Source: Phycisphaerae bacterium
GTDB lineage: Bacteria > Planctomycetota > Phycisphaerae > Phycisphaerales > SM1A02
Length of the DNA: 41,908 nt
Reading direction: 5' to 3'
NCBI GenBank assembly: GCA_016873275.1
Contig: VGXO01000024.1
Location: forward strand, 1-41,908
In this document: positions 8,173 to 19,332 of the stretch, piece after piece
Numbering within the stretch: position 1 is the stretch's first letter
How the letters are laid out: every line of letters begins with the position of its first letter
Notes under the pieces: model-generated
Told to the model about the DNA's origin: nothing
Seen by the model: only the letters and a program-made list of their open reading frames with translations
Databases searched by the model: none
Position numbers and translations under genes: made by a program

Positions 8173-10365
8173 TCACTCGGGGATCTCGCCATTCGGTCGC
8201 CGCGCGCCGAGCGCCGAGACCACCGGGTGGGCGGGCATCGGCGCCGGCGGAGCACCCTCGCCGGCAAGTTCCGCGGAGACCCGCGAGAGCGAGGAGTAGC
8301 GCTGGCAGTCGGAGAGCGTGGCGTAGTTCAGGATCACGCCGAGGTAGTTCGCCCCGACGTGCTTGATGTCGTTGATGCAGTCGACGAGGCGATTGCGGTT
8401 GCGACCACGACGCAGCACCAGCACCACGCCGTCGATCGCACCCAGGATCGGAAGCGACTCGACGCTCGCCGTCATCGGACCGCTGTCCACCACGACGATC
8501 TCGTAGGAGTCCCGCAGTCGATCGAGGAGCTCCCGCATCGCCGCGGGCTGGAGGTGACCCGCCGACACGCTGCGGTCGCTGCCTGCCGGCAGCAGGTCGA
8601 GGTTGGGGCGGGCGGGTCGGACCCAGCGAAGCACCCCGCTCGGCTCCCGCATCGCCTCCCGAACGCCGGGCTCCGAGAGCACGCCGAACTGGAAGCTGAG
8701 GGCGCGACCAATGAAGTCGGCATCGACCATGACGGTGCGGTATCCCGCCTGCGCGTAGGACCATGCAAGCGCCGCCGCGACGGAGGTCTTGCCGTCCCCT
8801 TGGAACGGACTGCTGACCTTGAGGGCGACCCCGCGATCGGAGTGCCCACGGCGGACCTCGATTCGGTTGCGGATCCGATGCACGCAGTCCTCGAGCAGCA
8901 CGCGCTCCTCGTCGGTGTCGCCGAGGCGCGACATGTCGGGGACCACGCCGAGGGGCTTGAGGCGACCGCGATCCGACTCGAGCTGCCGGGAGGCGAACGC
9001 CCTCCGGTCGACCGTGCCGAGCAGGAAGAAGCCGACGAGGCTGGCGCCGAGACCTCCGAGGAATCCGGCGGCGCCGTACTGCATCCGGCGGTCCCGGCTC
9101 GGGGAGCTCGGCAGCTGCGCCATGGCGCGGATCTGGACTCGTCCCTGGCGGATCGCCTCGCTCTCGGTCTGCAGTCCGCTGAGGCGCGACTCGTAGGAGG
9201 CGATCTCCGCGGCAATGCGGGCGGAGTCCCGGGTGATCTGATCGGCACGAGCCTGCTCGACGTTCGCCCGGTCGATCGCCGTGCGGAGCTCCGCGAGGTC
9301 GGCGCTTAGCTCCTCGATTCGAGTCCCAAGCGCCGCGTAGCCGAAGGAGGACGCCATCCGCTGGGACCACGTGTCCCGCGCCTCCTGCCGCCGCGCCTGA
9401 ACGCTCGCGGAGATGTTCTCCACCCTGGACCGAGCCTGCCGCACCGCGGGATGCTCGTCGGCAAACCGCGAGACCAGTGCGCCGAGGTTGTACTCCTCGA
9501 CCTCGAGCTCCTTGGCGAGCGACTGCAGCGTCGAGTCGGACTCGAAGAGCTCCGTCTCCGTGGGCGGAGCGACGTCCCCCGGCTGGACCGGCCGATTCTG
9601 GTTCGTCGCGACTTCCTCGATGCGCGTGCGCAGGTCACGGAGCTTGTTGAGCTCACCCTGCAGCACGGCGATCTCCTGCACGCGGGAGCCGAGGAAGGTG
9701 CCCAGCTCGAGCGTGCCGTAGAGCGTGGACTTGAGCAGCCGCTCCCGCTCCTGCTCCAGATCCGCCAGGCGTCGCCGGGCATCGGTCAGCAGCGACCGGA
9801 TCTGCTGCGTGGTCCGCGTGTGCTGCGTCTCGGAGTTGGGACCGTAGATGCTGAAGTACGATTCGAGCACCGCGTTGACCGCCGCCTGGGCGAGGCGGCG
9901 ATCGTCGGCGGTGAACTCGATGGAGATGAGGGTGGTGCCCCGGATCACGCCGACCCGAAGATCCGTGGACAGCGCCTTCATTGGATCCTCGCCCAGTTCG
10001 GCAAGGTGCGCCTTCAGCTGCTCGCTCTTGAGCGCATCCCCGAGGACGCGACCGTCCTTCATGAGTTCCGCCTGGGATCCGATGAAGGCCGTGAAGTCCG
10101 CAAGCTGTTCCGTCTCCGGCGTCTCGTTGACCAAGGTAGGCAGGCGCGTCTCGACCTGCACAAGTCCGCGCGCCGTGTAGGACACGCCCGCAAGCCGGAA
10201 GCCCACGACGGCGAGCGCCGCGCCGAGCACGAGTCCCGCGGAGATCGCCCACTTCCAGCGCCCGTGCATGCGGTCGACGACCATGCTCCAGAGATTGACC
10301 CCCTCCTGAGGGTCGCCCTCCTGCTGCCGACCAAACTCCCTCTCGAACATCGTGTTCTCATTCAT
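8173..10365 (-). CDS. Wzz/Wzc-type chain-length determinant with BY-kinase-like ATPase domain
   Basis: 730 residues. The ATG at 10365 has GGAGG upstream and lies 8 bp inside the preceding gene. The layout is a short cytoplasmic start, a first membrane helix (about 37-60), a long periplasmic coiled-coil region with many Arg/Glu heptads, and a second helix (about 425-450). A cytoplasmic MinD/BY-kinase-type ATPase follows: Walker A SSPFQGDGKTS (about 515-525), Walker A' VMVDADF, Walker B IVVVDSGP. It should control polymer length and export with the sugar transferase and flippase/polymerase functions. The C-terminus lacks the usual cluster of tyrosines seen in autophosphorylating Wzc/CapB. Only one tyrosine (QRYSSL) is near the end, so kinase activity is uncertain. 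Confidence 0.93.
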   Translation of the reverse strand: MNENTMFEREFGRQQEGDPQEGVNLWSMVVDRMHGRWKWAISAGLVLGAALAVVGFRLAGVSYTARGLVQVETRLPTLVNETPETEQLADFTAFIGSQAELMKDGRVLGDALKSEQLKAHLAELGEDPMKALSTDLRVGVIRGTTLISIEFTADDRRLAQAAVNAVLESYFSIYGPNSETQHTRTTQQIRSLLTDARRRLADLEQERERLLKSTLYGTLELGTFLGSRVQEIAVLQGELNKLRDLRTRIEEVATNQNRPVQPGDVAPPTETELFESDSTLQSLAKELEVEEYNLGALVSRFADEHPAVRQARSRVENISASVQARRQEARDTWSQRMASSFGYAALGTRIEELSADLAELRTAIDRANVEQARADQITRDSARIAAEIASYESRLSGLQTESEAIRQGRVQIRAMAQLPSSPSRDRRMQYGAAGFLGGLGASLVGFFLLGTVDRRAFASRQLESDRGRLKPLGVVPDMSRLGDTDEERVLLEDCVHRIRNRIEVRRGHSDRGVALKVSSPFQGDGKTSVAAALAWSYAQAGYRTVMVDADFIGRALSFQFGVLSEPGVREAMREPSGVLRWVRPARPNLDLLPAGSDRSVSAGHLQPAAMRELLDRLRDSYEIVVVDSGPMTASVESLPILGAIDGVVLVLRRGRNRNRLVDCINDIKHVGANYLGVILNYATLSDCQRYSSLSRVSAELAGEGAPPAPMPAHPVVSALGARRPNGEIPE

Positions 10366-11155
10366 GTCCTGCCTCCGTCCCTGGATCGGTGCGATCACCG
10401 AGCACGTCGATCGCCGCCCGCGGCAATGCATTCAACAAGGATGTCGCCGGCTCTGCGATGATCTCGACGCTCGGCCAACCCGCGAAGACGACCTGGATCT
10501 GCGCGACTCCTTCGCGCGATGCCCGACGTCGGGTCTGGACGTCACGAATCGCTCCCAAGTCGGAGTTCCAACTGCCATCCGGCAGGATGAAGGCGCTCAG
10601 GACGGTCATCTTGATCTCCGTCAGTCCCTCACCCATCCGAGAGAATCGATACGCCCGCATCGGCATCAGTCGACCGTCCAACGTCTTGACCTCCAGCGAC
10701 TCGAACCTCTCCACGTCCACGGTGGGATCGGAGAGACCACCAGCCTTGGTCGATGCGTCGAGCGGTCGATCGAGCGTCCACCCATGGGACGGGTAGCAGA
10801 TCGGCGGATAGTGCCCCGCCATGTCCCGCGCGTCGCTGCAGTGGATGAGGCTCATCATGACCCGCTCGTCGCCGCCGATCCTTCGGTAGGAACGGCTCAA
10901 GCTGGCGTTCGGGCGGAGCAGCTCGACGGCGGCCGGCGCGAGCGGCTGCTCCTCGCCGATCCACTCCCCACAGCGAAGGGGCACCCCCTCCAGCACCCGC
11001 CGGATCCGGTCGTGGTGCGCGACCAACTCCGCATCGACTGACGGAGGCTGCGGCGCCAGGATCCCGACTCCCACGACGATGACCAGCGACAGCCACGGAC
11101 CGAGTCGACCCGCGCTTCGCCACGCACCCGCGATGGATCCCTCGAGCGAGCTCAT
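10358..11155 (-). CDS. EpsI-family exosortase-associated protein (DUF3485)
   Basis: 265 residues with an N-terminal membrane helix (WLSLVIVVGVGILA, 21-34). The hallmark of the EpsI/DUF3485 family is visible in the middle: HCSDARDMAGHYPPICYPSHGW (105-126, in pieces HCSDARDMAGHY and CYPSHGW) with Cys120. The gene starts inside an ATGA overlap with the exosortase stop (11152-11155), so the two are translationally coupled. EpsI proteins are found fused to, or directly downstream of, exosortases in exopolysaccharide loci. Their biochemical role is not settled; a function in processing or export alongside the transpeptidase is usually assumed. Confidence 0.92.
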   Translation of the reverse strand: MSSLEGSIAGAWRSAGRLGPWLSLVIVVGVGILAPQPPSVDAELVAHHDRIRRVLEGVPLRCGEWIGEEQPLAPAAVELLRPNASLSRSYRRIGGDERVMMSLIHCSDARDMAGHYPPICYPSHGWTLDRPLDASTKAGGLSDPTVDVERFESLEVKTLDGRLMPMRAYRFSRMGEGLTEIKMTVLSAFILPDGSWNSDLGAIRDVQTRRRASREGVAQIQVVFAGWPSVEIIAEPATSLLNALPRAAIDVLGDRTDPGTEAGHE

Positions 11156-12024
11156 GACGGCACCAGCCTCCAGTTCATGACCGGGACGTCAAGCCAACGG
11201 AGCAGCCGCACGATCCCCATCAAGAGCACCAACGCCAGCGGCAGCATCAGCCAGCCGCCGATGTCGTGGATCTGCTCGGCGACGGTCGGATCGAACCATC
11301 CATAGGCGATGCTCGTCGGGACCAGCCGCACGATGTTGCAGACGAGCGCCACGACCGGCGCGAGGACGATCAGCAACAGACGGGTCGTCATGCTGAAGGG
11401 GACGGAGAAGACGAACGCATACACCACCAAGGCAAGCGCGAAGACCATCCGCATCCCGTTGCACGCCTCGCCGACCGCCACGGGCTCTCCCGCGATCGTG
11501 ATGACGTTGCCTGAACGGATGGCGTCGAAGCCGAGGATCTGCAGCACGCCGTGCGCGGTCACCACCGAGAACTCCTGCGCCGGAGCCGCCAGCATGTGCC
11601 GGACTCGACCCGGCACGGGAATCACCAGCAACAGCGCGATGATGACGGGGGCGAACTGCCGCACCACCTCCCATCCCGTCATGCCGTAGACGCACCCGAA
11701 CATGGCGATCAGCACGCCGGCATGCCACGCCAACTGCACGCCGTTGAGGTCTCCCCAGGTCGAGGTCCACATCCCCAGGGCGATCAGCGCCGGACCGACG
11801 AGGTTGGGTCGATACCGGATGAACTGCAGCCGGGATCGGCGGAGCCACAGGAGATACGCGGCGACCATCGGGGCGCACAGGATGTAGCCGTTGTCCGTCT
11901 GCCCCACCGCGAACAAGTAGATGTCCTCCAACGCGCGACGCCCCCACCACGCGACCACCAGCAGGCTCGCTGCCATGAGCAGCAGCCGAGGCGTCGTCCA
12001 GCCTCTCGTCCGCATCTGGCTCAT
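11152..12024 (-). CDS. Exosortase (PEP-CTERM-type sorting transpeptidase, planctomycete class)
   Basis: 290 residues, mostly hydrophobic, with about eight membrane helices. All three residues of the exosortase active site are present in the right order: Cys188 in VGEACNGMRM, Arg233 in NIVRLVPTS and His253 in HDIGGW. The family cleaves C-terminal sorting tails and is thought to link the protein to surface polymer. The ATG at 12024 overlaps the upstream stop as ATGA; an in-frame upstream extension lacks membrane character and lies inside the previous gene. It shares the operon with EPS genes and EpsI, and a candidate substrate is encoded divergently at 13642. It is probably the planctomycete XrtU-like subtype, but this needs a profile search. 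Confidence 0.95.
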   Translation of the reverse strand: MSQMRTRGWTTPRLLLMAASLLVVAWWGRRALEDIYLFAVGQTDNGYILCAPMVAAYLLWLRRSRLQFIRYRPNLVGPALIALGMWTSTWGDLNGVQLAWHAGVLIAMFGCVYGMTGWEVVRQFAPVIIALLLVIPVPGRVRHMLAAPAQEFSVVTAHGVLQILGFDAIRSGNVITIAGEPVAVGEACNGMRMVFALALVVYAFVFSVPFSMTTRLLLIVLAPVVALVCNIVRLVPTSIAYGWFDPTVAEQIHDIGGWLMLPLALVLLMGIVRLLRWLDVPVMNWRLVPS

Positions 12025-12968
12025 CGTCCGTGACTCCACTCGGCGACCGCTCCGACGGGGAATGCGGTAGATCCGCGGTCGACGGCCGACTGTTCGATCC
12101 ATCGAGACGCCAGCGCGGGATCAGCGACGATGCCATCGACCACGATGGTGCCCTCGGGAATCCGGATCATCGGACCAATGACGCTGCGGGCGACGACGGC
12201 GTCGCTCGAGACTTCGGCACCGGGAAGCACCACGCTGTCGCGGATCACGGCGCGGGCATCCACGGTCGCACCCTCGCACACGACGCTGCTCCCAAGCAAG
12301 GTCGATCCCGCGTCCTTCGGACCTGCCGCCAAGCGCTCCTGCCAGATGCGGACGCCTCGGAGGTAGTCGCGTCGAGCGGCGAGGCGCAGGGCGGTCGCGG
12401 TGATCGTCGCGGCGATCGCCCGATGCCCCTTGGCGACCGCCTGCGGGATGAACTGCTCCTTCAGGTCGAGGTACCCGATCTTGGGCACGATCTCGAGCAC
12501 CCGGCGACGCATCAGCACCACGCCGGCCGGACGATCGTCGCGGCTCGATCCGATCACCAGCGAGGCGGCGCCGTCGCCGGCATCCAGGACTCCCCCGACG
12601 CTCGGCGGGGGCAGGGTGCCCGCCTCCACGACCAGCACGTCGAGACCGGGGTCGATCTCGGCCGCCACGTCGGCGACCACTCCGCCGACGCCGCGGTGAG
12701 GTCGGCGATCAAGCATCACCTCCACCGGGCCGGTCCGCGCCATCCTCCGAAGCTCGGCGGTGAACCAGGCGCGGTCGAACTCGCTGCTGCATGGCACCAG
12801 CATGGTGGCGCCGGCGAGCCGAGGATCGGCCCGCAGCACGTCGATCCATGCCTGCAGCACCGTGCGTCGCGGCTCGAGCGGAAGACCCGGCACCGGGAAG
12901 CCGAGCGAGCGATGCAGCTCGTTCGCCCGCAGCCCGCCCGCGAGCAAGATGATCGCGAACCTGCTCAC
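12021..12968 (-). CDS. Sugar nucleotidyltransferase-like protein with left-handed beta-helix tail; signature motif degenerate
   Basis: 315 residues from a GTG preceded by GAGGGAG at 9 bases. The N-terminal half has the start of a nucleotidyltransferase fold (FAIILLAGGLRANEL). However, the glycine/arginine loop of active enzymes (GGxGxRLxPLT) is replaced by GGLRANELHRSLGFP, and the nearby Lys of PKPL/PKPM is missing. The middle keeps IGYLDLKEQFIPQAV, close to the GYxDLKEQxLP box of NDP-hexose pyrophosphorylases. The C-terminus has hexapeptide-like turns (GATVDARAVIRDSVVLPGAEV, split at about 245-265). It is the first gene of the EPS/exosortase operon. It may be inactive as an enzyme and serve as a regulator or partner; this is inference from motif loss. 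Confidence 0.85.
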   Translation of the reverse strand: MSRFAIILLAGGLRANELHRSLGFPVPGLPLEPRRTVLQAWIDVLRADPRLAGATMLVPCSSEFDRAWFTAELRRMARTGPVEVMLDRRPHRGVGGVVADVAAEIDPGLDVLVVEAGTLPPPSVGGVLDAGDGAASLVIGSSRDDRPAGVVLMRRRVLEIVPKIGYLDLKEQFIPQAVAKGHRAIAATITATALRLAARRDYLRGVRIWQERLAAGPKDAGSTLLGSSVVCEGATVDARAVIRDSVVLPGAEVSSDAVVARSVIGPMIRIPEGTIVVDGIVADPALASRWIEQSAVDRGSTAFPVGAVAEWSHGR

Positions 12969-14849: not shown

Positions 14850-15275
14850 ATGAGACGAGCTGCCGGTCGAGCCTCGGGAGGTTCATCCGACCACGCCGCG
14901 TCGAGCGACGAGTCCAAGCTCTGCCCGACCTGCGGGCGCTGGTTCTCGTGGCGGGCGAAGTGGGCGCGAAGCTGGTCCGAGGTGAAGTACTGCTCCGACC
15001 GCTGCCGCCGCGGCGTCGGGAGCGCAGGAGTCGCGGCGGAGCAGGCGATGATCGAGCTCCTGAGGGCGCGCGGCACCGGCTCCGCCTGCCCGAGCGAGGT
15101 CGCGCGGATGCTCGCCGCCCGAGACGGTCGAGCGGACGGCTGGCGCGAGCAGATGCCCACGGTGCAGGACGCGGCTCGGCGGCTCGCCGCCCGCGGTGAG
15201 ATCCTGATCACCCAGCAAGATCGCCCCGTCGATGCGGCGACCGCCCGCGGACCGATCCGACTACGCCTTCGCTGA
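14850..15275 (+). CDS. DUF2256-DUF3253 domain protein (photolyase-associated)
   Basis: 141 residues from the ATG at 14850; a GTG immediately upstream is also possible, and the true start is uncertain because GGAG is only 2 bases from the ATG. Residues 24-54 are a DUF2256 zinc-ribbon-like motif: [18 protein letters not shown], then VKYCSDRC, with Cys25, Cys28, Cys48 and Cys52. Residues 60-141 fit DUF3253, a winged-helix-like domain ([24 protein letters not shown]). The stop is 5 bases from the stop of the convergent photolyase-oxidoreductase gene. DUF2256 proteins often neighbour cryptochrome/photolyase genes, so a joint role in light or DNA-damage response is plausible but not shown. Confidence 0.88.
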
Positions 15276-15280
15276 TCAAG

Positions 15281-17770
15281 TCACGGCGCGAGGTCGAAGA
15301 GACCCCGCTCCGACCCGCCGGACTTCGCCGCCGGCGTGGCGGCGAAGAACCGCGGCTCGCCGAGCACGCGACCCGCGAGCGACTCGCCCGCCGCGAACGC
15401 CGTCGCGATGGTGCCGTCGCCGCACCAGTCACCACCGGCACCCAGCGCGAGCGCCGTGGACCACGCCTCGACGCGGTCGTTGGTCTTCGTCTGCGGCGCC
15501 GCGAAGCGCCAGCGATGCGGGATGATCGACTCGATGCTTGCCGACGCCGCGCCTCTCGCGCCAAGCACTCGCTCGAGCGCCGCACCCATCCGCGTCGCCA
15601 CGTCCTCCGCCGGCAGTTCGAGATTCGCTTCGGTCCACGCCGGCGTCGCCTCGAGGACGAGGTCTCGTCCCCGAGGCGCATCGGACCCCGGCTTCGACCC
15701 CTGATCGACCACGCCCGCGATCGCCTCGTCCCCCTCGAGCACCAAGCGGTCGAAGGGAAGCTCCGACCTCGCGCTCATCCTGACCATCGCGACCCAGGCG
15801 GGACGCATCGCTTGCCCCTCCACGATCGACGCGAGCCGCGCGACCTCGCCGTCCGGCGGCGCCGACTTCAGGAGCTCCGCCGCCTGCGGCGACGGGAGCG
15901 CGAGAAGCACCGCGTCGAAGCCGTCGTGGGTGCCTCCCGACTCGTCGGCGAGCCGCCAACGTGCCCCGTCGCGTCCGAGCGAGGTGATCCGCGTCGAGGT
16001 CCGCACCGCGAGGCCATCCGCGAGATGCCGCGCCACGCGGCTCATGCCGCCGACGCCGCACCACCCTGACCATCCCGGTCTCGACTCCGAGCCATCGACG
16101 CCGACGACGAGCGTCCGCGGCGTCCACGACGCCACCACGCCGCGGTCGCGCCACGACTTGACCAAGCGCCGAAGCCGCGGCGTGGTCGCCTCGAGCGCGG
16201 AGGCGCCGTGATCAAACCATCCTTCCGGCGTGCGCCGCGTGCTGATCCGACCGCCCGGACCGCGCCCCTTGTCGAACGACACGACCTCGATCCCGTGATC
16301 GACGAGCACCCGCGCCGCCGCGAGTCCCGCGACGCCGGCACCGACCACCGCGACGCGGAGCGCCGCGCCGCCATCGCCGCGACGGGTGGTCCGATCGATC
16401 CGCCGCCGATACGCGTCGAGATCGAGCCGAGCCGCGTGGTCCTCGATCGGTCGGGGACGCACGCGACCAAGCACCGGCGTCTCGGGCTCGAAGGGTCGGT
16501 CGAAGAGACCCAGGCACCACAGCAGACCGCCGTAGCTCGATGGATCGCAGCCATCGAGGGCGAATCGATGGTTGAGCTCGATGAGCCGCCGCATCGCCTC
16601 CTCCGGCGATGCCGACCACCCGAGGAGCGCCTTGCCCCAGGTCATCCGGAGGTTGTTGTGGAGCTCGCCATGGCGGAGCAGGCTCTGCTGCGCAAGGTCC
16701 CACAACGGCTCGCCCGTGCGGCCGCGGGCGAGCGTCTCGTCGTCGAGCCGATCGCGCGGATCGCCTCGATGCGCGTCGAGCGTGACCCGCGCCCACGCGG
16801 GAACCGCGGTCCACGCCTCCGGATCCGCGACGTGCCGGCACCAGTGATGCGCGAGCTCGCGCCAGATGAGGAGCTCCTCCACGAACTTCTCCGCACCGGC
16901 GGCGTGCGCCTCCCGCGCCACGCGGAAGGGACTGATCATGCCGTAGTGGAGATAGGCGGACATCCGGCTCGTCGCGTCGATCGCCGCGTCGTTTCGGTCG
17001 CGGGCGTATCGAGCGAGGCGCCTCGCGCGGAACCCCTCCCATCGAGCCTGCGCCGCCACGAGACCGCCCGGCGTGTCGGGCACCGGCGCGATCGAGTGAT
17101 CAAGGTCAAGCGAGGCGACGAGCTCGGCGAGGTCGGCGGTCGCGAGGTCGATCGAGCCCTCGACCGGCGGCGTCGCCGCGGCGGGCGGGCGGCGCTCGCC
17201 CGTGAGCATCGACCATGGCATCAGCGTGCGGCGTCGCCGCTCCTCCGCGAACGCGTCGCGGAAGGCGAACGCCCGGTCCGGCGCCCGGGTCGAGAGCGAC
17301 ATCGGCACCACGCACGCGGCATCGACCGCGAGCAAGGGCGCGATCCCCCGCGACGCGAAGGAGCCGAGCCAGCGAGGCCACGGCGGCGCCGGCAGATCCT
17401 CGGTCACGACGACCGCGGCGTCGGCGGCGAGCCTCCACAGCGGCGATGGCTCGCCGCGACCACGCCGAAGGACCAGGACGTCCTGCCCGCGCTCCCGCAT
17501 CGCCGCCTGCAGATCGCGGAGACCTTCGAGGGCGAACCGCTGGTGGCGGTCGTTGTCGTAGGGATGCGGACCCCCGATCACCGCGACCGCCCGCAGCGGC
17601 AGGTCGAGCGACGCCGCGAGCGACTCCGCGACGTCGAGCGCCGGGTTCTCCTCGACCCGCATCGCGTGATGGACCCACCAGAGCACCGTGCGTCCGGACG
17701 CCACGGGCGAGTCATGCGCGGAGAGGAGCCGGGTTCGCTCCCGGAGATGCTCGGGCAATCGTGCTCGCAT
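15281..17770 (-). CDS. Class II-like photolyase fused to an FAD-dependent amine-oxidase-like domain
   Basis: 829 residues. Residues 25-455 are a photolyase. The N-terminal Rossmann part opens LWWVHHAMRVEENPAL. The FAD-binding helical part has SRMSAYLHYGMISPFRVARE, WGKALLGW and NHRFALDGCDPSSYGG (about 400-415), the last close to the class II signature NxRYxLDGRDPNGYxG. From about residue 470 a second flavoprotein begins: VAVVGAGVAGLAAARVL (GxGxxG), then FDKGRGPGGRISTRR and a C-terminal GDWCGDGTIATAFAAGESLA, typical of the amine oxidase/renalase-like family. These two enzymes are usually separate genes. The frame is continuous with no stop at the junction. A possible ribosome site AAGGAGG lies 14 bases before the ATG. 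The photolyase half should repair UV pyrimidine dimers; the substrate of the oxidase half is unknown. Confidence 0.93.
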   Translation of the reverse strand: MRARLPEHLRERTRLLSAHDSPVASGRTVLWWVHHAMRVEENPALDVAESLAASLDLPLRAVAVIGGPHPYDNDRHQRFALEGLRDLQAAMRERGQDVLVLRRGRGEPSPLWRLAADAAVVVTEDLPAPPWPRWLGSFASRGIAPLLAVDAACVVPMSLSTRAPDRAFAFRDAFAEERRRRTLMPWSMLTGERRPPAAATPPVEGSIDLATADLAELVASLDLDHSIAPVPDTPGGLVAAQARWEGFRARRLARYARDRNDAAIDATSRMSAYLHYGMISPFRVAREAHAAGAEKFVEELLIWRELAHHWCRHVADPEAWTAVPAWARVTLDAHRGDPRDRLDDETLARGRTGEPLWDLAQQSLLRHGELHNNLRMTWGKALLGWSASPEEAMRRLIELNHRFALDGCDPSSYGGLLWCLGLFDRPFEPETPVLGRVRPRPIEDHAARLDLDAYRRRIDRTTRRGDGGAALRVAVVGAGVAGLAAARVLVDHGIEVVSFDKGRGPGGRISTRRTPEGWFDHGASALEATTPRLRRLVKSWRDRGVVASWTPRTLVVGVDGSESRPGWSGWCGVGGMSRVARHLADGLAVRTSTRITSLGRDGARWRLADESGGTHDGFDAVLLALPSPQAAELLKSAPPDGEVARLASIVEGQAMRPAWVAMVRMSARSELPFDRLVLEGDEAIAGVVDQGSKPGSDAPRGRDLVLEATPAWTEANLELPAEDVATRMGAALERVLGARGAASASIESIIPHRWRFAAPQTKTNDRVEAWSTALALGAGGDWCGDGTIATAFAAGESLAGRVLGEPRFFAATPAAKSGGSERGLFDLAP

Positions 17771-17814: not shown

Positions 17815-19332
17815 ATGAAGGACCTCCTCCTTGGTCTCGATCTCGGCACCGGCGGAACCCGCGCGATCCTCGTCGCGGCGGATGGCTCGATCGTGGCAGG
17901 GCACTCGGTCGATCATCCGCTCTCGACGCCTCGACCCGGCTGGGCGGAGCAGGATCCGGAGGACTGGTGGCGCTCCGCGACCGCCGCGATCCGAGGCGCG
18001 ATCGCGAAGGCAGGACCTTCGGCTCGAGTCGTCGGCATCGGGCTCAGCGGGCAGATGCACGGGCTCGTGACGTGCGATGCGAAGGGCACGCCGCTTCGAC
18101 CCTGCATCCTCTGGTGCGACCAGCGCTCGGCGGCGCAGTGCCTGGAGGCGGAGCGCCGCATCGGTCTCGACCGGCTGCTCTCGCTCGCCGGCAACCGCAT
18201 GCTCGCCGGCTTCACGGCGCCGAAGATCCTCTGGTGCCGCGAGCACGAGCCGGAGCTCGAGCGGCGCGCCGCGGTCCACCTCCTCCCGAAGGACTGGCTT
18301 CGCCACCGCCTCAGCGGCACCTTCGCAACCGAGGTCTCCGACGCCTCGGGCACGCTGCTCTTCGACTGCCCGCGGCGGTGCTTCAGCGAGGAGCTCTGCG
18401 GGCTCCTCGGGATCGACCTCCGCACGATGCCGCCCTGCTTCGAGAGCCCAGTGGTCTCCTCGCGGCTCTCCCGCGAGGCGGCGGACGCACTCGGGCTCGC
18501 CGCGGGGACGCCGATCGTCGGCGGCGGCGGCGATCAGGCAGCGCAGGCGATCGGCACCGGGCTCGTCCGCGAGGGACCCGTCTCGCTCACCCTCGGGACG
18601 AGCGGCTGCTCCTTCGCGGTGCGCCACCGCTGGCCGGGCAATCCCGGCGGCGTGCTCCACGCCTTCTGCCACGCGGTGCCGGGGACCTGGCACCTGATGG
18701 GCGTGATGCTCTCCGCGGGAGGAAGCCTGCGGTGGTTCCGCGACGAGGTCGCCCGCGACCTCGTGCCGCTCGCGCGGTCGAAGGGCGTCGATCCCTACGA
18801 GCTGATCTGCGAGGAGGCGGCGAGCGTCCCGCCCGGCGCGGAGGGGCTCTCCTTCCTTCCATACCTCTCCGGCGAGCGCACGCCGATCTCCGACCCGCAC
18901 GCCCGCGGCGCGTTCGTCGGGATCTCGACGGCGCACCATCGACCGCACCTCGCCCGAGCGGTCCTCGAGGGCATCACCTTCGGGCTCGCGGACGGGCTCG
19001 ACCTGATCCGCGGGGCAGGAACTCCCATCGCGAGCCTGCGGCTCTCGGGGGGTGGCGCCCGCGACCTCTTCTGGCGGCAGATGATCGCCGACGTCGTCGG
19101 ATGCCCGACGACGCTCGTCAACACCACCGAGGGCGCCGCGTACGGGGCGGCGCTCCTCGCGGGAGTCGGCGCGGGCGTTCATCCCTCGATCGAGGTCGCG
19201 GTGGACGCGGCGATCCGCGAGACCGACCGCCTCGAGCCCTCCGCCTCCGCCCCGGCGTATCGCCCGCCGCGCGAGCGGGCACGGCGGCTCTATCCCTTGC
19301 TTCGGGAGTGGTTCGCGAGCGGCAGCGCCTGA
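17815..19332 (+). CDS. xylB: Xylulokinase (FGGY carbohydrate kinase)
   Basis: 505 residues, standard for xylulokinases. It phosphorylates D-xylulose to xylulose-5-phosphate with ATP, feeding the pentose phosphate pathway. FGGY features are visible throughout: the N-terminal phosphate loop GLDLGTGGTRAIL, GIGLSGQMHGLV (the xylulokinase-type substrate loop), CILWCDQRS, GGGGDQAAQAIGTG, SLTLGTSG and YLSGERTP, then LRLSGGGARDLFWRQMIADV and TEGAAYGAALLA near the C-terminus. There is no Shine-Dalgarno sequence before the ATG, but a TAGCAT box lies 7 bases upstream, so the mRNA may be leaderless. No xylose isomerase or transporter is adjacent, so a related ketose substrate cannot be excluded. Confidence 0.94.
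   Translation: MKDLLLGLDLGTGGTRAILVAADGSIVAGHSVDHPLSTPRPGWAEQDPEDWWRSATAAIRGAIAKAGPSARVVGIGLSGQMHGLVTCDAKGTPLRPCILWCDQRSAAQCLEAERRIGLDRLLSLAGNRMLAGFTAPKILWCREHEPELERRAAVHLLPKDWLRHRLSGTFATEVSDASGTLLFDCPRRCFSEELCGLLGIDLRTMPPCFESPVVSSRLSREAADALGLAAGTPIVGGGGDQAAQAIGTGLVREGPVSLTLGTSGCSFAVRHRWPGNPGGVLHAFCHAVPGTWHLMGVMLSAGGSLRWFRDEVARDLVPLARSKGVDPYELICEEAASVPPGAEGLSFLPYLSGERTPISDPHARGAFVGISTAHHRPHLARAVLEGITFGLADGLDLIRGAGTPIASLRLSGGGARDLFWRQMIADVVGCPTTLVNTTEGAAYGAALLAGVGAGVHPSIEVAVDAAIRETDRLEPSASAPAYRPPRERARRLYPLLREWFASGSA

Follow-up and report, generated by a model that had tools for sequence, protein, structure and literature searches.

A class II-like photolyase fused in frame to a renalase-type flavoprotein in a Phycisphaerae bacterium and in distantly related bacteria

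We have analyzed a 41,908-nucleotide stretch of DNA from a Phycisphaerae bacterium (GenBank assembly GCA_016873275.1, contig VGXO01000024.1; hereafter the window), which carries a gene encoding a class II-like photolyase joined in one frame to a renalase-type flavoprotein. The gene is confirmed as a genuine photolyase-renalase fusion, and the fusion recurs in distantly related bacteria. Both enzyme families are known, and we found no report of their fusion in the open-access literature, which leaves most subscription journals outside its reach; the initial annotation of this DNA had likewise known of no characterization of the fusion. The gene and its parts are as follows.

15281..17770, minus strand: fused gene of 829 residues, class II-like photolyase plus renalase-type flavoprotein, with an ATG start (domain matches; 35 fused members aligned, including that of the window)
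16400..17698, minus strand: photolyase half, residues 25-457 (TIGR00591; 2xry/8oet, E ~1e-50; Foldseek match to 4cdn, TMt 0.87)
16637..16660, minus strand: clade signature HNNLRMTW, residues 371-378, equivalent to 374-381 of the Methanosarcina mazei enzyme (alignment)
16358..16399, minus strand: linker, residues 458-471 (gap between the two matched stretches)
15362..16357, minus strand: renalase-type half, residues 472-803 (4zcc, E 2.5e-42; Foldseek match to 3kkj, TMt 0.93)
16295..16309, minus strand: residues 488-492 of the renalase half, part of a set of residues typical of fused members (alignment statistics)

Two flavoenzymes in one frame

The 829-codon frame has the place and length given in the initial annotation, and a domain search matched a class II photolyase and a renalase in the one chain. 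Residues 10-457 match the NCBIfam model TIGR00591 (class II photolyase) with 277.3 bits, below the cut-off of 550.05, and for this reason we call the first half class II-like, as had been proposed, rather than a class II member. In a search of solved structures, the M. mazei class II photolyase matches residues 25-457 (E 3.4e-51), and the bacterial renalase 4zcc matches residues 472-803 (E 2.5e-42), with 14 residues between the two matches. The second flavoprotein is complete, and its GxGxxG motif begins at residue 477, where it had been expected. Its earlier description as amine-oxidase-like is right in that it is a flavin adenine dinucleotide (FAD)-type protein; the nearest solved structures are the Pseudomonas syringae renalases 4zcc and 3kkj, and the identity as a generic amine oxidase was rejected in favor of a renalase by both the structure search and Foldseek.

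The window DNA contains 156 open reading frames (ORFs) of at least 100 amino acids. Since long ORFs are common here, the length of the frame is no proof by itself, and the evidence for the fusion lies in homology across both halves and in the recurrence of the joined frame. The suspicion of a sequencing error or missed stop at the junction is answered by the 35 aligned members, in all of which the junction is open; the linker region, measured between two fixed alignment columns, spans 15-31 residues among them.

An AlphaFold2 model of the window protein, built from a 72-row alignment, has a predicted local distance difference test score (pLDDT) of 94.2 and a predicted template modeling score (pTM) of 0.94 across the whole chain. 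A second fused protein, L035 (L and G numbers denote our loci and genomes), whose renalase half groups with other renalases, gives a pLDDT of 94.5 and the same pTM of 0.94. These confident models of a two-domain body suggest that the relative placement of the domains is predicted reliably, as one rigid body in two members. Foldseek matches the first half to the M. mazei photolyase 4cdn (TMt 0.87) and the second to the P. syringae renalase 3kkj (TMt 0.93, rmsd 1.7); no chain spanning both halves was found among the best 50 Foldseek chains listed.

Full-length fused matches were found in 4 of the 61 nearest genomes and in 10 of 397 genomes of the class, to which G328 is added with a frame break near codon 570. 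This broken gene (locus L242) is interrupted by one frame change within a long single contig, perhaps a read error, and its near twin L040 is intact. Homologue records labeled by their submitters as metagenome-assembled genomes of Planctomycetota, Sandaracinus (Myxococcota) and Gammaproteobacteria extend the range. Among relatives of the Sandaracinus-labeled genome, 22 of 144 have a fused match, counted if a single match reaches at least residue 600, and in G504 of this set the two halves sit at two contig ends; among relatives of the Gammaproteobacteria-labeled genome, 3 of 147 have a full-length one. The class-wide and relative searches scored two or six candidates per genome (two in the class search), so that second copies may have escaped. 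These searches gave 37 distinct genomes with the fusion, G328 included, and 35 gave aligned loci; no locus was obtained for G499 and G484, and duplicate loci (L002, L004, L005, L064 and L065) were left uncounted.

To counter the bias of searching with a fused protein, we used a 24-base degenerate pattern for HNNxRMTW, a motif of the photolyase half only. The pattern is present in 42 of 1167 genomes of three phyla (14/392, 27/377 and 1/398), and its reversed control gave no match among those listed. Forty of the 42 loci run on in frame into a renalase match; one (L279) is at a contig edge, its frame stopping ~20 bases before the contig end, and one (L262) is unfused, the only separate clade member found in this survey of fused and split homologues. 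Of the 42 genomes, 25 had not been sampled before; they contributed 23 fused loci in addition to L262 and L279. Carriage by phages or viruses was rejected: viral contigs scanned by peptide pattern, a search able to reach close relatives only, held no relative, and phages gave no match. Thirty-eight plasmid records matched, and none of the 20 listed covers 80% of the query.

The photolyase half and its tryptophan exit

The 35 fused photolyase halves form one clade, with a support of 98 in the Shimodaira-Hasegawa-like approximate likelihood ratio test (SH-aLRT). Compared with 25 separate photolyases, mostly from the class of the window, the signature residues N373 and T377 are present in all 35 fused rows and in none of the 25 separate class II rows. 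In M. mazei numbering, all 35 fused rows keep E301, W305, R378, M379, D409 and W421, and 34 keep N403; of the tryptophan triad, W381 and W388 are kept in 35 and W360 in 32, and the window protein has all three. It also retains the class II active-site set E301, W305, M379, W421, N403 and the R378-D409 pair, a list that, apart from N403, we partly presume. N403 is named as an active-site residue in PMC9649867. With these residues kept, a cryptochrome devoid of repair activity is not favored. A search of the genome of the window for CofH, which belongs to the synthesis of the antenna 8-hydroxy-5-deazaflavin (8-HDF), gave four CofH-like matches, all under the cut-off.

The whole half aligns with the class II cyclobutane pyrimidine dimer (CPD) photolyase of M. 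mazei (MmCPDII, 2xry/8oet) at 28-29% identity. The two have the catalytic residues and the tryptophans in common, whereas the fused proteins form a separate clade, carry Y376N and Y380T, have changed K384 (to Ala), E387 and Y345 in most members, and possess the added C-terminal renalase. Against the separate class II rows, Y376 is replaced by Asn and Y380 by Thr in 35 of 35 fused rows. Other substitutions are A297 to Lys (35/35), M443 to Arg (35/35), C448 to His (34/35) and K384 to Ala (27/35); E387 is replaced in at least 31 rows, and Y345 in 30 (kept in 5). The window protein has T, A, G, E and L at Y380, K384, E387, D357 and Y345, respectively. In held-out fused members, R440 was found in 23 of 23, H445 in 21 and K384A in 19.

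The location of these changes is given meaning by work published on the M. mazei enzyme in 2017 (PMC5885780). There, the terminal Trp388 radical is reported to deprotonate to a water cluster, at which Tyr380, Lys384, Glu387 and Asp357 are among the residues conserved in class II enzymes; Tyr345 is a further electron donor, and residue 445 sits 4.0 Å from Tyr380. The alignment thus indicates that in most of the fused clade the exit site around Trp388 is altered while the tryptophans are kept. R440, H445 and R448, typical of the fused clade, flank residue 442, which is equivalent to residue 445 of M. mazei and lies 30 residues ahead of the renalase domain. The chain would therefore enter the second domain near the exit face.

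The nearest sister of the fused clade is L110 from Polymorphobacter, on a long and uncertain branch, with HNNLRMYW in place of the signature and a Trp at the W305 place. It is presumably of the PhrSph98 kind: PMC9649867 lists Polymorphobacter among (putative) bifunctional CPD/(6-4) photolyases of this type. The aromatic pathway given there for PhrSph98 is Y389-W369-W390-F376-W381, and the window protein has T377, W357, W378, L364 and E369 (the last by the same numbering offset) at these places. A PhrSph98-type photolyase was accordingly rejected for the window protein, Y389, F376 and W381 of the described pathway being replaced by T, L and E. The paper also excludes a 'node 13' in which Y389 (the Tyr380 place) is Thr or Leu; this node probably holds the fused clade and an L066-type sister (HNYLRMLW). 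The main text of that paper makes no mention of an oxidoreductase, amine oxidase, fusion or fused protein.

The renalase-type half

The second half aligns over its whole length with bacterial renalases of P. syringae (4zcc, 4zcd, 5krq and 3kkj) at 30-32% identity, and the titles of the solved renalase entries record crystallization with the nicotinamide adenine dinucleotides NADH, NAD+ and NADPH. The FAD motifs (GxGxxG, GGR and GD) are nearly always kept. The fused halves differ from free bacterial renalases in their position behind a photolyase, in five fused-typical residues and, in the genus of the window, in several otherwise conserved residues. Forty-five positions are near-invariant in 19 separate bacterial renalases; separate renalases keep 33-45 of them and fused halves 21-45, with 36 in the window protein, 44 in L006 and 45 in L035. 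Twenty of 34 fused halves match at least 40 of the 45.

The five residues that mark fused halves are T488, D491, H492, R535 and G800, and the window protein has four of them. Fused halves carry 2-5 and separate renalases 0-2 of the five; the thresholds that define the marks (75% and 30%) were set after viewing the data, and none of 500 random sets of equal clustering yielded even one such position. Among the 23 held-out fused members, the five residues occur in 11, 14, 15, 20 and 17, respectively. By predicted secondary structure, the positions lie in or beside three helices, and we read them as a putative docking face, re-evolved or left standing during exchange of the middle of the domain.

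The history of this half is not that of the photolyase. In a tree made without L044 (frameshift), L079 (contig end) and L085 (ragged C-terminal end), 32 fused renalase halves are interspersed among 60 separate renalases, with 17 changes of label, at least eight of them forced by strong branches. In pairwise comparisons, the most identical sequence is nevertheless another fused half for 25 of the 32, and a separate renalase for seven. The L087 half, for example, is 66% identical to the free renalase L151 and at most 44% identical to other fused halves; for the L035 half, the identities are 57% with a free renalase and 51% with the closest fused half. The renalase data reject the photolyase tree (p 0.0007) and the converse test gives 7e-9; both were run on fast trees, and errors in tree estimation add to the conflict. 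A regional test of one clade gave p 0.29 for residues 470-545 (76 columns only) and p 1.25e-6 for residues 546-700, under a model with no mixture. A single history of both halves is therefore rejected on the present data, with the photolyases in one clade, the renalase halves scattered and the trees in conflict. The alignments would allow several histories: the middle part may have been swapped with free renalases, the two halves may have been joined more than once, or the fusion may have split repeatedly with loss of the photolyase half.

Readings of the fusion and its surroundings

Our first choice, held tentatively and with less than even confidence, is that these proteins are distinct class II-like photolyases with a C-terminally tethered flavoenzyme that re-reduces them during photoactivation. 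The renalase half would accept hydride from the reduced form of a nicotinamide dinucleotide (an isomer of NAD(P)H or a related compound), and its flavin, once reduced, would be held near the surface end of the tryptophan chain (Trp385, equivalent to Trp388 of M. mazei). Once light has oxidized the chain, the second flavin would re-reduce the tryptophan radical, and the photolyase FAD would thereby be locked in the reduced, active state with no need of free reductants from the cell. For this mechanism we infer two bound FADs, a second half that remains able to oxidize a dinucleotide and is docked on the exit face, and electron transfer from one flavin to the other. The changed tryptophan exit and the predicted rigid two-domain body incline us towards such electron transfer, which would account for the exit-site change in most of the clade and for the fixed placement of the domains.

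A number of observations weigh against this mechanism. D357 is retained in 22 of 35 fused rows, and the held-out members L257 and L259 retain both K384 and E387; we have lowered our estimate for this. Since these two proteins are fused, the altered exit site is, from their sequences, not a condition of fusion. Together with L258 they form a separate branch of the fused clade (genomes G1139, G1221 and G1115 for L257, L258 and L259; support 99), and L257 and L259 may show the state preceding the exit-site change. In L262 (G1087), the photolyase frame stops and no renalase lies within the surrounding 9 kb. This locus is nested in the fused clade beside L282 (support 82), in a tree that includes all 25 new loci and 27 of the 35 fused rows aligned before, which suggests that the renalase was lost here and that the unfused form is not ancestral. 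Two near copies, L243 and L244 (G749 and G848), are the most deviant fused members, on a long branch, and have none of the five marks.

In the renalase half, all three members read from the genus of the window have other residues at Q56, P107, W212, R308 and S315 (4zcc numbering), which separate renalases conserve, and E310 is also changed in the window protein. The substrate may differ in this genus or catalysis may be lost, which makes the canonical renalase reaction uncertain there. Over eight pairs, the ratio of nonsynonymous to synonymous substitution rates (dN/dS), obtained by simple counting, ranges from 0.13 to 0.49 in the photolyase half and from 0.24 to 0.93 in the renalase half; the synonymous rate (dS) exceeds 1 in the pairs of the window itself, and L072-L073 has very few changes. 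A single clade for the fused renalase halves is rejected by the approximately unbiased (AU) test (p 5.6e-43). A second half that evolves faster and is not one clade suits a generic activity better than a co-evolved relay, and its different history, like the changed pocket in the window's genus, leads away from electron transfer. Photolyases also photoactivate with ordinary reductants. Extrinsic reductants figure as well in PMC5885780.

A contender of nearly equal standing, although it too falls short of being probable, is that the chain simply unites two repair activities, DNA repair and repair of nicotinamide dinucleotides (renalase oxidizes 6-NAD(P)H), which would be raised together under light or oxidative stress with no electrons passing between the flavins. 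Renalase is described as a metabolite-repair enzyme in PMC8669784, and the interspersion of fused halves with separate renalases agrees with an activity of general use. The surroundings of separate renalases point the same way. A gene of the photolyase/cryptochrome family lies within 6 kb in 10 of 60 regions and in none of 40 controls (8/60 versus 0/40 with a single query chosen beforehand); 38 of the 40 control regions come from the same genomes as the renalase regions, and some regions are shortened by contig ends. Nei/Fpg glycosylase (9/60), DUF3429 (7/60), MerR (4/60) and SDR (11/60) genes also recur near separate renalases, compared with 0, 0, 0 and 2 of 40 controls, a post hoc contrast, the queries having been picked because they recurred. 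Two activities side by side would account for these neighborhoods and for the mixed history of the second half. They fit less well with the changes in the Trp388 area that track the fused clade, with exceptions, with the confident two-domain bodies of both AlphaFold2 models and with the change of renalase-conserved residues in the window's genus; moreover, an operon would suffice for joint expression.

Rather unlikely in our estimate is a more elaborate version of the tethered donor, a self-supplied photolyase in which a dark oxidoreductase would feed dinucleotide electrons into the tryptophan chain. Here the exit site would have been rebuilt from a proton-releasing water cluster into a docking face, and this face would have been kept while the catalytic part was swapped with free renalases several times.

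On an improbable reading, the renalase-like half would be an FAD module without catalysis, which would stabilize the photolyase, attach to DNA or to a partner, or act as a redox sensor; the genus of the window would be on the way to losing catalysis. This would fit the changed pocket of that genus, in which the FAD motifs are kept and other conserved residues changed, and the faster evolution of the second half, whose dN/dS reaches 0.93 (L087-L088). The ratio is, however, as low as 0.24 (L083-L084) and 0.30 (L078-L081) in other pairs, and most fused halves retain nearly all of the conserved renalase positions counted above. Finally, an artefact, whether a chimeric contig or a sequencing error joining two genes, has virtually no likelihood and was ruled out: although the window is one of 136 contigs in a draft genome, the same join is present in many independent and unrelated genomes, including G976 and G1009, which are rated 100% complete.

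A related pairing is known from Pseudomonas and Rhodobacter, in which PMC5507510 and PMC9758184 place phrB and a flavin-containing oxidoreductase in the singlet-oxygen/light programme. The likeness is that of a photolyase and an FAD oxidoreductase in one light-stress programme; the genes are separate. The initial annotation had called the two enzymes known neighbors, which is borne out in print as regards phrB near a gene for a flavin-containing oxidoreductase.

The window also carries the following genes.

14913..15275 (ORF listed from 14601), plus strand: DUF2256 + DUF3253 protein, adjacent to and convergent with the fused gene (Pfam E 2.9e-15 and 1e-22)
17815-19332, plus strand: FGGY-family sugar kinase, divergent from the fused gene; taking the ATG at 17815 as its start, 44 bases separate the two start codons
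11152-12102, minus strand: exosortase EpsH gene (profile match)
10358-11155, minus strand: DUF3485 gene (profile match)
8173-10431, minus strand: CbiA/ParA-type gene (profile match)

The last three, in a row from 8173 to 12102, form what we take to be an exosortase/exopolysaccharide-like cluster. A DUF2256-DUF3253-type gene stands beside five of 21 fused loci, that of the window included, and beside none of 40 controls, and DUF2256-type genes also occur near the fused loci L081 and L085 and the separate class II photolyase L066. Such a gene is a candidate accessory of light response or DNA repair; we found no open-access paper treating photolyase together with renalase or with DUF2256. DUF2256-type genes were also seen beside the separate renalases L102, L154, L162 (the L107 region), L166 and L167. 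The separate renalase regions with a Nei/Fpg-type DNA glycosylase gene within 6 kb are L157, which is the same region as L102, and eight others.

The genome of the window has a second photolyase-family gene on contig C6, class I-like by sequence, and 12 of 22 fused genomes of the Sandaracinus-relative set have another match to the photolyase half on a different contig. Thus, the fused enzyme is often not the sole photolyase of the cell. At L194 (G650), a class I-like second photolyase gene (8559-9926) is divergent from the fused gene and directly adjoins it.

Accounts of how photolyases come by their reduced flavin in the cell, and keep it, usually invoke photochemistry and reductants that are left unspecified, and the recurrent fusion names a candidate partner for keeping this flavin reduced. 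To our knowledge, there is no settled view of what free bacterial renalases do in the cell. Combined with the clustering of renalases near photolyase-family and Nei/Fpg genes, the fusion provides a testable link of renalase to light and DNA repair, and the photolyase-renalase pair can be assayed as one protein and separated at the linker.

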